Shown here: positions 3,497 to 32,931 of the stretch, in pieces | Layout of the letters: each line of letters starts with the position of its first letter | How positions within the stretch are numbered: the first letter of the stretch is position 1 | NCBI GenBank assembly: GCA_003021105.1 | Contig: PXRG01000017.1 | Location: 39,352-103,351 of the forward strand | Origin: Halobacteriales archaeon QS_1_68_17 | Lineage (GTDB): Archaea; Halobacteriota; Halobacteria; Halobacteriales; Haloarculaceae | Length of the DNA: 64,000 bases | Direction: 5' to 3' | Program-made: the position numbers and the translations under genes | Notes under the pieces: generated by a model | Databases searched by the model: none | What the model saw: only the letters and a program-made list of their open reading frames with translations | What the model was told of the DNA's origin: nothing

Positions 3497-3640
3497 ATGC
3501 GCTCCACTGACGAAACCCGCGCGGAAGAACTCGAACGGCGTACAAACGACTGTGTTTGTCCGGGCGATCCGGTCTGTCCGCCCCTGCCACCGCTACCGCC
3601 GCTCCCCGGTCCGCTCCCCGGTCCGCTCCAACCGAACTGA
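3497..3640 (+). CDS. Small Cys/Pro-rich peptide, putative precursor peptide (47 aa)
   Basis: ATG 3497 to TGA 3640: MRSTDETRAEELERRTNDCVCPGDPVCPPLPPLPPLPGPLPGPLQPN. Strong AT-rich upstream region (aaaatataaataaaat). Stop codon abuts a MITE. Confidence 0.5.
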   Translation: MRSTDETRAEELERRTNDCVCPGDPVCPPLPPLPPLPGPLPGPLQPN

Positions 3641-3749
3641 TAGTGATTGTTGCGACTCTTTACCGCCGAGAAGTCACAATTCGTGGGCTTCAGCCCGCGA
3701 ACCAACCGTTCACGTGATGTGGTCGCAAAAATAATCGCAACAATCACTA
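3641..3749. mobile_element. MITE-B copy 1 (109 bp), TIR tagtgattgttgcga/tcgcaacaatcacta, TGA flank on both sides
   Basis: Perfect 15-bp TIR. TGA at 3638-3640 and 3750-3752. Near-identical to 20688-20796. Confidence 0.88.
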
Positions 3750-3857
3750 TGAGGCACGGATCGCACCAACCACGCTTTTTTACGTTTTTCGCTGCGTACG
3801 TTGTGTTTATAAAAGCGAAAGTTTTATTTATGATTATTGTTTAAGTTGAACTGCACC

Positions 3858-4010
3858 ATGTCACGAGATTCACAGGGTGAGGGCGAATCGAGCGAGGTCC
3901 ACTTCGTCGCCGACCTCGACGAACGAAAGAATACCTTCCACAACGGTCCCACCACGCAGGCCTGTTACGAGACCGGCTGTAGCGGTGGCGGCGGCGGCGG
4001 CGGTTACTGA
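3858..4010 (+). CDS. Putative RiPP/secreted peptide precursor, paralog 1 (50 aa)
   Basis: MSRDSQGEGESSEVHFVADLDERKNTFHNGPTTQACYETGCSGGGGGGGY. Shares promoter and N-terminal half with 4517..4699. Confidence 0.65.
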   Translation: MSRDSQGEGESSEVHFVADLDERKNTFHNGPTTQACYETGCSGGGGGGGY

Positions 4011-4222
4011 GGATTGCTCGCGCCGGACGTCCGGTCGTCATTCCTCTTGACCGGTCTCGCTGCTGTGCGTCGTCGGGGTAGTTCCCGACGGCGAGATCAC
4101 TTCTGTCGGACCAGGGAACATCTCGGGAAGAACCGACTGTGCCGGTATATAATCAGAATATCCAGTATAAAATTTACTAGAAAGAACATTTATTCTCCCG
4201 CTACGTTGTCGCCACCGGAGCC

Positions 4223-4378
4223 ATGAGTCACGAACAGCCCTCCAGGGACGGTGAATCGGGTGGGATCCACTTCGTCGCGGACCTCGAAGAGCGGAAGGCC
4301 GGGTCCCACCCCTGCGTGCCCGGCGTGGAGTGTACGACGGCCAACCACTTCGAGGAATCCGACTACGACGGCTGGTGA
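4223..4378 (+). CDS. Putative RiPP/secreted peptide precursor, paralog 2 (51 aa)
   Basis: MSHEQPSRDGESGGIHFVADLEERKAGSHPCVPGVECTTANHFEESDYDGW. Conserved HFVADLxERK block. Confidence 0.6.
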   Translation: MSHEQPSRDGESGGIHFVADLEERKAGSHPCVPGVECTTANHFEESDYDGW

Positions 4379-4516
4379 CCGCACGCTGGTCCGGTTCCCG
4401 GCTGGCGGCGACGCCGCCAGCATCGCCCCGCTAACCGGTTACATTTTTCGCTGTGTACGTTATGTTTACAAGAGCAATAGTTTTATTTATAATTACCATC
4501 TAAGTTGAACTGCACC

Positions 4517-4699
4517 ATGACACGAGATTCACAGGGTGGGGACGAATCGAGCGAGGTCCACTTCGTCGCCGACCTCGACGAACGGAAGAACGCACAGGAC
4601 GCGATCACGCAGGCGTGCTACGAGACCGGGTGTGGGGGTCCGCCCGAGCCGCCGATCACGACGTTCGCAATCGGCGAAGAGAGTCCCGGCGACTGGTAA
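4517..4699 (+). CDS. Putative RiPP/secreted peptide precursor, paralog 3 (60 aa)
   Basis: MTRDSQGGDESSEVHFVADLDERKNAQDAITQACYETGCGGPPEPPITTFAIGEESPGDW. Upstream ~75 bp duplicated relative to 3858..4010. Confidence 0.65.
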   Translation: MTRDSQGGDESSEVHFVADLDERKNAQDAITQACYETGCGGPPEPPITTFAIGEESPGDW

Positions 4700-5741
4700 T
4701 ACTGGTGGCTGTAAGTACGTGAAAACTCGAATTGAGAATCCAGGCGGAAAGGGTCTGTATCCGCAGATAGCAGAGACTGTTGAGTAAAAGAATTACAAGG
4801 TGGCCGGCAACGTCGGTCCCGGCGTGTGCGTCGAAGCCGGCGAACATCGGCGACGGGTTCGCTTCGAGCACCGCGAAGTCGTCGCCGTCGACGAGGAAGT
4901 CGACAGCGGTGAACGCGAGGTCGAAACAGCCGGCCGCACGGACCGCCGTCTCCGCGATGTCGGGGCCGATCTCGTACCGTTCGAGTCCTTCTTCGGAGCC
5001 ACGGTAGTCGAGGTCGTCCGACAGGATGCGGGCCGCGGCGACGGCCTCGCCGCCGATGACGAACACCCGGACGTCGTCCCCGTCGACCCGTTCCTGGAAC
5101 TGGACGGGCGCGTTCGCAAGGCGGCCGAGCCGGTCGTCGGTGAGGTCCTCCTGGCCGACCGGGCGGGCCTGGCCGCCGCCGCCGACGGGCTTGTAGATGG
5201 CGTCGTCGATCCGGTCGACGAACGCCCGGACCCGCTCTGGATCGTTGGCGGCGAGCGTCTCGGGGACGGGAACGCCGGCCTCGGCCAGCTGCGACAGCTG
5301 GTACGGCTTGTTGGCGTGGATGCCGGACGAGTCCGGGGGGTTGACCACCCGGACGCCGGCCTCCTCGAGGTACATGAGCACCGACCGCAACAGGCCCCGG
5401 TACTCGCGGTACTGATTGAGCACGGCGATGGGTCGCTCGTCGAACTCGTCGTCCTCCCGGTCGACCACGCGGGGGTCGAACCCCATGCGCCGGAGGTAGA
5501 CCGCGTCGAGTTCGTCCGGATCGACGACGTCCTCGCCGACGCGAATCCGCGTCTCCGTCCCGGCCTGTTCCATCCACAGCGGCGTCTCCCCCGGCCAGGC
5601 GTCGGCGTCCCAGACCGTCCAGTCCGCCCCCCGGTCGTCGAGTTCACGGCCGACTGACTGTACCTGTGCATCCCCCGGCGAGCCGAGCAGCGCGATGCGC
5701 AAGTGTGACCCCCTCGGGGAACCTGTTACTTCGCGGGGCAT
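4656..5741 (-). CDS. ATP-grasp ligase (RimK-like); C-terminus runs into MITE-A
   Basis: NPPDSSGIHANKPYQLSQLAEAGVPVPETLAAND, DAIYKPVGGGGQARPV, AFTAVDFLVDGDDFAVLEANPSPMF motifs. The sequence after ..TDVAGHLV is MITE-encoded. Confidence 0.82.
   Translation of the reverse strand: MPREVTGSPRGSHLRIALLGSPGDAQVQSVGRELDDRGADWTVWDADAWPGETPLWMEQAGTETRIRVGEDVVDPDELDAVYLRRMGFDPRVVDREDDEFDERPIAVLNQYREYRGLLRSVLMYLEEAGVRVVNPPDSSGIHANKPYQLSQLAEAGVPVPETLAANDPERVRAFVDRIDDAIYKPVGGGGQARPVGQEDLTDDRLGRLANAPVQFQERVDGDDVRVFVIGGEAVAAARILSDDLDYRGSEEGLERYEIGPDIAETAVRAAGCFDLAFTAVDFLVDGDDFAVLEANPSPMFAGFDAHAGTDVAGHLVILLLNSLCYLRIQTLSAWILNSSFHVLTATSITSRRDSLRRLRTS
4700..4797. mobile_element. MITE-A copy 1, right TIR truncated
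   Basis: Starts tactggtggctgtaa immediately after stop TAA (4697-4699). Matches 32727-32834 until ..aattaca, then diverges. Confidence 0.85.
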
Positions 5742-27895: not shown

Positions 27896-28774
27896 ATGGC
27901 CTACAGCTACGCGGGGGAGGCCCATTCGGCACTTCTGGCGTCCTACCGTTCGGACGAGGAGCCGTTCCCGACCGGGAGTTGCTGGAACTTCCCGCGGCGG
28001 GACTGCGTGCGCGAGGAGGTCGACGTGTTGCGGCGGCTCCTGTTCCCGCGGTGCTGGGATTCGGATTCGCTGATCGAGGACGAGTCGGCGGTCCGCGAGC
28101 TGGTCTCCGAGCTGGGCGAGCTGTTCTACACGGGCATCCGCCCCTACACGGGGGACGACCCCACGGACGCGGTCGACGCCGTCTTGGACCAGTTGCCGGC
28201 CATCCGGGAACTGCTCAAGAAGGACGTCGAGGCCGCCTACAAGGGCGACCCGGCCGCCAAGAGCTACGCGGAGATCATCCGGTCGTACCCGGGCTTTCGG
28301 GCCATCACGGTCCAGCGGATGGCCCACGCCCTCTACGAGGCGGGCGCGCCGGAGTACGCCCGGGAACTCACCGAGTTCGCCAAGACCGACACGGGGATCG
28401 ACATCCACCCCGGGGCCGAGATCGGGGAGTACCTGTTCATCGACCACGGAACCGGCGTCGTCATCGGCGAGACCGCTACCGTCGGCGACTGGGCGCGCAT
28501 CTACCAGAACGTCACCCTCGGCGCGCTCCACTTCGAGGAGGAGGAAGACGAACGGAACATGCTCAAGAAGGGGTACAAGCGCCACCCCGACATCGGCGAT
28601 CACGTCGTGGTCGGGGCCGGGAGCAACATCCTGGGCGCGATCACCATCGGTGACCACGTCAGCATCGGCGCGAACTCCTGGATCACGGAGGACGTTCCCG
28701 ACCACACGACGGTGTACGTCTCCGACCACCCCGAGCAGGAGCGCAAGCGGACTGAATCGGCCCCCCAGGACTGA
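27896..28774 (+). CDS. cysE: Serine O-acetyltransferase
   Basis: TGIDIHPGAEIGEYLFIDHGTGVVIGETATVGDWARIYQNVTLGAL hexapeptide repeats. Confidence 0.9.
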   Translation: MAYSYAGEAHSALLASYRSDEEPFPTGSCWNFPRRDCVREEVDVLRRLLFPRCWDSDSLIEDESAVRELVSELGELFYTGIRPYTGDDPTDAVDAVLDQLPAIRELLKKDVEAAYKGDPAAKSYAEIIRSYPGFRAITVQRMAHALYEAGAPEYARELTEFAKTDTGIDIHPGAEIGEYLFIDHGTGVVIGETATVGDWARIYQNVTLGALHFEEEEDERNMLKKGYKRHPDIGDHVVVGAGSNILGAITIGDHVSIGANSWITEDVPDHTTVYVSDHPEQERKRTESAPQD

Positions 28775-29040
28775 TACTGGTGGCTGTAAGTACGTGAAAA
28801 CTCGAATTGAGAATCCAGGCGGAAAGGGTCTGTATCCGCAGATAGCAGAGACTGTTGAGTAAAAGAAGTCGGTGTGGTGACGTACTCCTCGACGGCGATC
28901 ATGAGCGCCGCGACGAAGAGGAAGCCGGTGCCCAGCGCCGGGCGGCCCTTCAACAGGAAGTCGACGCCGAGCATCGCCACCGGGATGGCGAACACGAGCG
29001 TCGCCGCCAGGCCGAGCGTCCCGAGGATACCACGTCCCAT
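28600..29040 (-). CDS. Small membrane protein (DUF7533-like); native stop lost, reads through MITE-A and antisense cysE
   Basis: MGRGILGTLGLAATLVFAIPVAMLGVDFLLKGRPALGTGFLFVAALMIAVEEYVTTPTS then MITE-encoded FTQQSLLSADTDPF... Confidence 0.6.
   Translation of the reverse strand: MGRGILGTLGLAATLVFAIPVAMLGVDFLLKGRPALGTGFLFVAALMIAVEEYVTTPTSFTQQSLLSADTDPFRLDSQFEFSRTYSHQYQSWGADSVRLRSCSGWSETYTVVWSGTSSVIQEFAPMLTWSPMVIAPRMLLPAPTTT
28775..28867. mobile_element. MITE-A copy 2, right end truncated
   Basis: Starts tactggtggctgtaag directly after cysE stop TGA (28772-28774). Identity to other copies ends at ..taaaagaa. Confidence 0.85.
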
Positions 29041-32346: not shown

Positions 32347-32726
32347 CCGACACACCGGACACACCGGACGCGCCGGACGCACCCGACGCCCCCGACGCGC
32401 ACGACGCGGACGCCGGCGGGGCCGACGCCTCCCCCGACGTCGATCCGTCGGTGCTCGAAGAACTGTTCGCGGTCATCGAACAGCGCAAGGCCGACCTCCC
32501 CGAGGGTTCGTACACGGCGTCGCTTTTCACACACGAGAAAGGCGAGAACGCAGTCCTGGAGAAACTCGGCGAGGAGACGACCGAACTGGTGCTCGCGGCC
32601 AAGGACGGCGACCGCGAGGCGCTCGCCCACGAGAGCGCCGACATCGTCTACCACCTGCTCGTCCTGCTGTCGATGGAGGACATGGACCTGGCGGACCTGC
32701 TGGCGGAACTCCGCGAGCGGCGCTGA
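32343..32726 (+). CDS. hisE: Phosphoribosyl-ATP diphosphatase
   Basis: LPEGSYTASLFTHEKGENAVLEKLGEETTELVLAAKDGDREALAHESADIVYHLLVLL. Confidence 0.93.
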   Translation: MTDTPDTPDAPDAPDAPDAHDADAGGADASPDVDPSVLEELFAVIEQRKADLPEGSYTASLFTHEKGENAVLEKLGEETTELVLAAKDGDREALAHESADIVYHLLVLLSMEDMDLADLLAELRERR

Positions 32727-32834
32727 TACTGGTGGCTGTAAGTACGTGAAAACTCGAATTGAGAGTCCAGGCGGAAAGGGTCTGTATCCGCAGATAGCAG
32801 AGACTGTTGAGTAAAAGAATTACAGCCACCAGTA
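32727..32834. mobile_element. MITE-A copy 3, complete (108 bp), TIR tactggtggctgtaa/ttacagccaccagta
   Basis: Perfect 15-bp TIR; TGA at 32724-32726 (hisE stop) and 32835-32837. Confidence 0.92.
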
Positions 32835-32931
32835 TGAGGCCCGTCCCGGGTCGCGCTGACGTGGTGCACCCGCCCGACACGAGCGGTACCCACAGCCGTC
32901 ACGGCGTCGGTTCTCGGTCGGCACCTGGCCT

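Follow-up and report, generated by a model that had tools for sequence, protein, structure and literature searches.

The window (the whole 64,000-nucleotide stretch of haloarchaeal DNA analyzed here) carries three small paralogous genes on the forward strand, p1 (3858–4010, 50 aa), p2 (4223–4378, 51 aa), and p3 (4517–4699, 60 aa), which are putative graspetide precursor genes, and, convergent to them on the reverse strand, a gene (4656–5741) encoding a PsnB-like ATP-grasp peptide macrocyclase (predicted graspetide synthetase). An earlier note on this DNA had reported p1–p3 together with an upstream ORF, p4 (3497–3640, forward strand), and the coordinates and translations of all four were confirmed. 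p1 has the leader HFVADLDERK and a core module TTQACYETGC (3951–3980) with two Cys and a predicted Thr-Glu ester between T2 and E7; p2 has the leader HFVADLEERK and a core with TTANHFEE (4334–4357), in which TTxxxxEE is the plesiocin motif; p3 has the leader HFVADLDERK and two core modules, ITQACYETGC (4604–4633) and TTFAIGEE (4658–4681), the latter again TTxxxxEE. Common to all three is E-S-x-x-[VI]-HFVADL-[DE]-ERK, and the invariant columns in the alignment of the three paralogs are E10, S11, HFVADL, ERK, and then C34.

The similarity is also found at the DNA level. A 51-nt leader segment occurs three times in the cluster at 80–94% identity, with the C-terminal halves diverged, and a 152-nt repeat (3780–3931 versus 4439–4590, 89% identical) spans the promoter region and the leader. 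The AT-rich region upstream of p1, a putative promoter (3780–3857, forward strand; TTTTATTTAT), has its second copy 5' of p3 (4439–4516). By their sequences, p1 and p3 arose by recent duplication, the region 5' of the gene having been copied along with it, and their cores diverge after the repeat. Both the alignment and the DNA repeats bear out the earlier description of three paralogs with a conserved N-terminal half and diverged C-termini. Within the codons of HFVADL[DE]ERK the paralogs differ mostly at third positions (GCC/GCG, GAA/GAG, CGA/CGG), so the leader motif appears to be conserved as protein.

The case for p4 as a precursor is tentative and weaker than that for p1–p3. It is a candidate degenerate precursor with a leader-like TRAEELERRTN, whose likeness to the leader HFVEDLEERTN beats 1996 of 2000 shuffles, and with a Cys/Pro-rich C-terminus; the HF of the leader motif is lost and the T-x4-E core is absent.

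The ATP-grasp ligase

Compared with all PDB chains, the ligase found its best match in PsnB, the plesiocin macrocyclase (7drm, E 1e-58, residues 9–319), followed by 9bou at about 5e-17 and by lysine/RimK ligases at ~1e-9; for the microviridin ligases, E ranged from 3.5e-10 (5ig9) to 3e-4 (7mgv). The active-site residues YKP, FQE, DDVR, and LEANPS of the ligase correspond to YKP, FQE, DDVR, and LELNAS in PsnB. The top NCBIfam match was TIGR04187 (GRASP_SAV_5884), 'ATP-grasp ribosomal peptide maturase', at 3e-28, the window ligase scoring 98.9 bits and its relatives 108–128 against a cut-off of 350 bits, i.e., below the level of membership. An AlphaFold model of the ligase alone had a pLDDT of 38, too low for use. 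In the ligase tree, which has long outgroup rows and a root drawn at the midpoint only, the eight first-found haloarchaeal ligases of clade A group together (92/93), their nearest neighborhood includes PsnB, and a second haloarchaeal set, clade B, lies mostly apart from clade A. The earlier note had pointed to the adjacent ATP-grasp protein as a possible modifying enzyme, and the PsnB homology, the active-site residues, and the linkage with the precursors support this well; the ligase is very probably the cyclase of the plesiocin-type precursors p1–p3.

Precursors and ligases in other genomes

Briefly, a profile of the three window peptides was run over 392 genomes of the haloarchaeal order to which Halocatena and Halorussus belong, with both strands read, and real precursor ORFs were found in seven of these genomes. 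An independent ligase search of the 392 genomes recovered eight clade-A genomes (E below 1e-87), i.e., those seven plus G339. The precursor is within 1 kb of the ligase in all seven non-window loci, and five clade-A ligases found later, for which the outcome had been predicted beforehand, all came with a precursor and an adjacent M50 gene (5/5). Twelve other haloarchaeal genomes have the leader as well, and the precursor is adjacent to the same ligase in 12 of 12 relatives; the HMM search across haloarchaeal genomes and the look at genomic neighbors, both proposed in the earlier note, have turned up homologs, and the complete lack of homologs that the note had named as speaking against its reading is not what we see. 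Examples are the precursors of G696 (MTAENNDGVHFVEDLEERSNASPMVTTLAIGEEGGVTTLACAETGC) and G687 (...HFVEDLEERSNAAPMVTTMALGEEGATTMACFETGC), and a precursor gene missing from the annotation is present on the Halocatena salina plasmid (NZ_CP096022.1). On this plasmid (L091, 9873–11231), a 452-aa hypothetical protein is encoded after the ligase and M50 genes on the same strand and may share their operon.

No clade-A ligase was found beyond the order in a phylum sample of 295 genomes, where one weak partial match reached 8e-21, and no relative of the cluster was found in viral contigs. A conserved ABC exporter was looked for across the loci and is absent, and no NHLM/PCAT transporter-protease is among the gene families common to the loci, M50 being present instead. 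Two sets of matches were rejected. Genome-wide codon-pattern matches for HFVADL[DE]ER (11 matches in 84,980 genomes) lie mostly inside or antisense to longer frames, and none has a graspetide-type core; the profile matches L011 and L013–L021 proved spurious as precursors when the other strand was read too.

The core motif and the match to PsnA2

Fifteen precursors contain 22 T-x4-E modules, with at least one in each (15/15), four extra overlapping matches within TTxATGECPEK being left out of the 22. Please note that the constancy of T2 and E7 follows from the search definition and that the informative part is the presence of a module in every precursor; the shuffle values for the core motif are non-independent across related peptides and are not taken as a p-value. 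The module types are TTxAxGEE (plesiocin type), xT[LMQ][AS]Cx-E-T-G-C, TTxxxGEC-PEKC, and TTANHFEE. Strict TTxxxxEE is found in p2 (TTANHFEE) and p3 (TTFAIGEE), p1 having only TTxxxxE, and the eighth-position Glu is also absent from several relatives, so TTxxxxEE is not universal. The precursor of G696 has TTLAIGEE, identical to PsnA2, and that of G339 has zero Cys. Emphasis had earlier been laid on pairs of Cys spaced by four or five residues; the spacings (CYETGC, CVPGVEC) are correct, but Cys does not define the family, the feature shared by the cores being [x]T-x4-E (TTQACYET, TTANHFEE, ITQACYET, TTFAIGEE).

When the first ten haloarchaeal precursors were made into a profile and searched against the whole PDB at E ≤ 10, the sole match was PsnA2(14–38) (FIEDLGKVTGGKGGPYTTLAIGEE) with E 0.049, FVEDLEER aligning to FIEDLGKV and TTLATGEE to TTLAIGEE; with a wider precursor profile PsnA2 was again top-ranked (E 1.1). 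This match is weak by itself. Combined with the independent PsnB match of the neighboring enzyme it makes a strong case, because substrate and enzyme both indicate one known pair. The reading of these genes as RiPP precursors, made in the earlier note from the conserved leader, variable core, and tandem paralogs, is well supported, and the class can now be given as graspetide, plesiocin-like.

An M50 metalloprotease beside the ligase

A gene for a daptide/epipeptide-type M50 membrane metalloprotease adjoins the ligase gene in 12 of 12 clade-A relatives, and most clade-A and clade-B loci encode near the ligase a polytopic protein with HExxH and NPxxxGDG and a weak Pfam M50 match. All 16 M50 proteins compared match the daptide intramembrane metalloprotease family NF041824 (best 2.8e-20) and 15 of 16 match the YydH/LiaK epipeptide protease NF058609; the two copies scored against the 300-bit cut-off of NF041824 reached 44.6 and 56 bits (56 being the copy of the source genome), i.e., they are homologous and not members. 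The M50 and ligase genes share 4 bp in L036, L037, L039, L040, and L072, and in L038 and L041 the M50 gene lies a few bases downstream. It was found in 18 of the 392 genomes of the order sample, all 18 of which also have the ligase. A PqqD-like RiPP recognition domain was considered for the N-terminal ~80 residues of the M50 protein and found no support from Pfam or PDB profile searches. Epipeptides are removed or exported by M50 enzymes, which also have a part in pearlin pathways (PMC10885120), and graspetides use PCAT-type C39 transporters (PMC13097080); in the open-licence literature we found no description of a graspetide paired with an M50 protease, the two being mentioned jointly in one review only.

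The source genome has one M50 homolog, on contig 12, with 43% identity to the M50 of G286 and with HEWGH and NPLLEGDG intact. Its neighbors are an ABC-transporter ATPase and a 42-aa peptide (MNEDTDYIDDIERRRNLNHGGCKGTCPNTDPWPNDDDNDGRY), the YIDDIERRRN of which matches the leader better than 2000 of 2000 shuffles. Because the only M50 homolog of the genome lies there with an ABC ATPase, protease and export for the window cluster are probably supplied in trans from contig 12, where the M50 part rests on correct binning, the source genome being a 60.8% complete bin of 39 contigs with the window on contig 17. At the contig 12 locus itself (L094, 5607–8517) the leader-bearing peptide, the ABC ATPase, and M50 were seen with no ATP-grasp gene, and this peptide may use the window ligase in trans.

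Clade B loci

The clade B loci (L073–L092 and L156; Halorussus and others) encode 28–40-aa peptides with HF[IV]E[DE]L leaders beside a related PsnB-like ATP-grasp protein, and most of them have an M50 protease of the clade-A type; two tandem ATP-grasp genes occur in three Halorussus loci. The cores are unlike graspetides, several having no acidic residues (TPITWFGG, TYYTGGCIAYC, TCPLSC), and in several precursors no acidic residue follows the leader-end [ED]xR.N (TVVSTPITWFGG, NTYYTGGCIAYC, NTRVTCPLSC). It is a speculative and quite improbable idea that the haloarchaeal ligase family exceeds Thr-Glu esters, clade B joining another acyl donor, e.g., the C-terminus of the peptide itself, to a Thr/Ser/Cys side chain (macrolactone/thiolactone) and M50 releasing a signal-like peptide. 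If this were true, the window module T-x-[AS]-C-x-E-T-G-C with its Cys would be an intermediate form.

Proposed product and mechanism

We consider it highly probable that the window cluster encodes plesiocin-type graspetides, i.e., RiPPs with Thr-Glu side-chain ester rings. PsnB-type ligases bind the leader and activate Glu as an acyl phosphate, which is then attacked by the Thr hydroxyl, and because of its homology the window ligase would be expected to follow the same mechanism. The leader segment HF[V/I][A/E]DL[D/E]ER would bind to the neighboring ATP-grasp ligase in the way in which PsnA2 docks on PsnB through FIEDL, and the ligase would activate core Glu side chains with ATP and esterify them with Thr side chains, giving small hairpin rings. 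Rings are predicted at T2-E7 in every T-x4-E module and additionally at T1-E8 in full TTxxxxEE, i.e., up to three in p3 (one in ITQACYET and two in TTFAIGEE), two in p2, and one in p1. The leader would most likely be removed by the M50 metalloprotease, the gene for which lies here on contig 12, next to those for a fifth precursor-like peptide and an ABC transporter. We infer the ester bonds, the order of the steps, the role of M50, and the in-trans arrangement, and it is a guess that the paired Cys of several cores could form disulfides.

Our preferred reading of the function, by analogy and as the least certain step, is that the product would be an extracellular serine-protease inhibitor, since the characterized relatives act as inhibitors and T2 is followed by L, M, or F in the full TTxAxGEE modules. 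Such a residue would suit chymotrypsin- or subtilisin-like targets if it stood in a plesiocin-like inhibitor loop; haloarchaea secrete subtilisin-like halolysins.

Alternative functions and the state of the window locus

The suggestion of a halocin-type secreted antimicrobial in the earlier note is backed by no test, the cluster having no Pfam or NCBIfam hit to a halocin or antimicrobial family, and the closest characterized relatives, plesiocin and the microviridins, are serine-protease inhibitors (PMC13097080). The same chemistry could nevertheless yield an antagonistic (halocin-like) peptide against other haloarchaea and not a protease inhibitor, a possibility of some weight though an unlikely one: the tandem paralogs, the diverged cores, and the patchy spread (~2% of sampled genomes) would fit an arms race, archaeal lanthipeptides are antagonistic (PMC12144867, PMC10105419), and M50 relatives serve the antimicrobial epipeptide EpeX (PMC10885120), whereas no immunity gene is conserved beside the clusters across loci and the core loops are nearest to a protease inhibitor.

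It is rather improbable that the M50 intramembrane protease sets the mature peptide free as a pheromone-like signal. Across loci, the clusters have no conserved regulator or receptor gene beside them, and repeated modules suit an inhibitor or an antimicrobial better; set against this are the very short clade B precursors (28–40 aa), the presence of M50 in both clade-A and clade-B loci, and the processing of bacterial peptide pheromones by M50-type proteases. The serine-protease inhibitor is kept as the preferred reading.

The gene order in G286 and G191 is HerA-like gene, (DUF7113), ligase, M50, peptide, and gene X. Homologs of gene X, DUF7113, and the HerA-like gene flank the window cluster, no M50 gene lies between p3 and the ligase, and the site of M50 in the relatives is occupied by a MITE-like element (4699–4797) of a 110-bp type without the right 11 bp, the first base of which is the last base of the p3 stop codon. 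This 99-bp stretch has at least 40 copies in the bin at 94–100% identity. Complete copies are 110 bp long with 16-bp terminal inverted repeats (ATACTGGTGGCTGTAA), i.e., a MITE, with 52 forward and 37 reverse end sites in the bin, in which no full-length parent element was seen. Further copies lie in the window at 28774–28867 and 32726–32835. The right end is missing in the window copy and likewise in the copies L101, L104, and L115, which suggests deletions adjacent to the MITE, and the simplest history would be that the MITE inserted first and the M50 gene was then deleted. The native part of the ligase ends near base 4798, its last few native residues being lost and ~41 final codons extending into and past the MITE. 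With no M50 gene in the cluster and with a ligase C-terminus that the MITE has changed, the window copy may be impaired. A second MITE-like element (3637–3753), with 25-nt inverted arms containing TAGTGATTGTTGCGA...TCGCAACAATCACTA, lies directly 3' of the p4 stop, and a sequence related to it is itself hit by the 110-bp MITE in L102 and L110.

One could go further and take the window copy for a decaying relic, in which the MITE cost the cluster its protease gene and the end of the ligase and peptide maturation has ceased, as the element in place of M50, the extended ligase, and the second element after p4 might suggest. We give this a low probability: the catalytic core of the ligase is intact and open, the three precursors retain leader and modules with motif differences mainly at third codon positions, and the M50 homolog persists elsewhere in the bin.

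Several cores do have Cys pairs, and many haloarchaeal small proteins are zinc proteins, but it is very improbable indeed that these are unmodified small Cys (e.g., metal-binding) proteins beside an unrelated RimK-like housekeeping ATP-grasp protein, as PsnB is a much nearer relative of the ligase than RimK/LysX are, the precursor is adjacent in 12 of 12 relatives with the ligase, and what the peptides have in common is T-x4-E modules and not a Cys pattern (G339 has no Cys).

Comparison with known systems

The known archaeal RiPPs are lanthipeptides and predicted YcaO, radical-SAM, and lasso classes, and graspetides do not come up in a 2025 survey that covered 11,644 archaeal genomes (PMC12144867). 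We found no archaeal graspetide described in the open-licence literature, where neither a second study of archaeal RiPPs nor the graspetide papers name one, and archaeal entries in the main surveys (Lee 2020, Ramesh 2021) are possible. The plesiocin-type graspetides proposed here would add another ring chemistry to archaeal RiPPs, with a clear enzyme–substrate pair and with precursor genes overlooked by annotation. That a daptide/epipeptide-type M50 protein is systematically paired with a graspetide ligase suggests a candidate leader protease, most graspetide leader proteases being unknown. The ligases are small enzymes of one subunit with an adaptation to high salt, and Haloferax volcanii has already served as a host for expressing archaeal RiPP clusters.

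Archaeal lanthipeptides (archalan, sallan, larlan) are likewise haloarchaeal RiPPs; they differ in having LanM and thioether rings, with unrelated enzyme and precursors. The M50 proteases of daptide and epipeptide systems (YydH/LiaK/EpeP) resemble the haloarchaeal M50 proteins in the NF041824 and NF058609 matches, HExxH, and NPxxxGDG, whereas the haloarchaeal partner is an ATP-grasp ligase and not the daptide aminotransferase set or a radical SAM epimerase. With the microviridins (MvdC/MvdD, MdnB/MdnC) the window cluster shares the ligase superfamily, side-chain cross-linking of the Thr/Glu type, and leader guidance; the microviridin ligases are far more distant, and the window has one ligase, not two, and neither a PFFARFL leader nor a TxKxxxxD-type core.

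The closest system is plesiocin (PsnA2/PsnB, Plesiocystis pacifica, graspetide group 2, PDB 7drm–7drp), with the same leader segment F[IV][EA]DL, the same TTxxxxEE core (TTFAIGEE and TTANHFEE here, and an identical TTLAIGEE in the relatives), and a single ligase with full-length homology. Plesiocin has four repeats per precursor, whereas the archaeal precursors have one or two modules, their clusters have up to three or more precursor genes, and a second module type, T-x-[AS]-C-x-E-T-G-C, contains Cys. No transporter-protease was found in the archaeal clusters, which have M50 instead; graspetide group 2 co-occurs with NHLM transporters (PMC13097080), which is typical and not defining. The graspetide/plesiocin kind is thus already known from bacteria, and the departures here are the pairing with M50, the Cys-bearing module, and the split arrangement.
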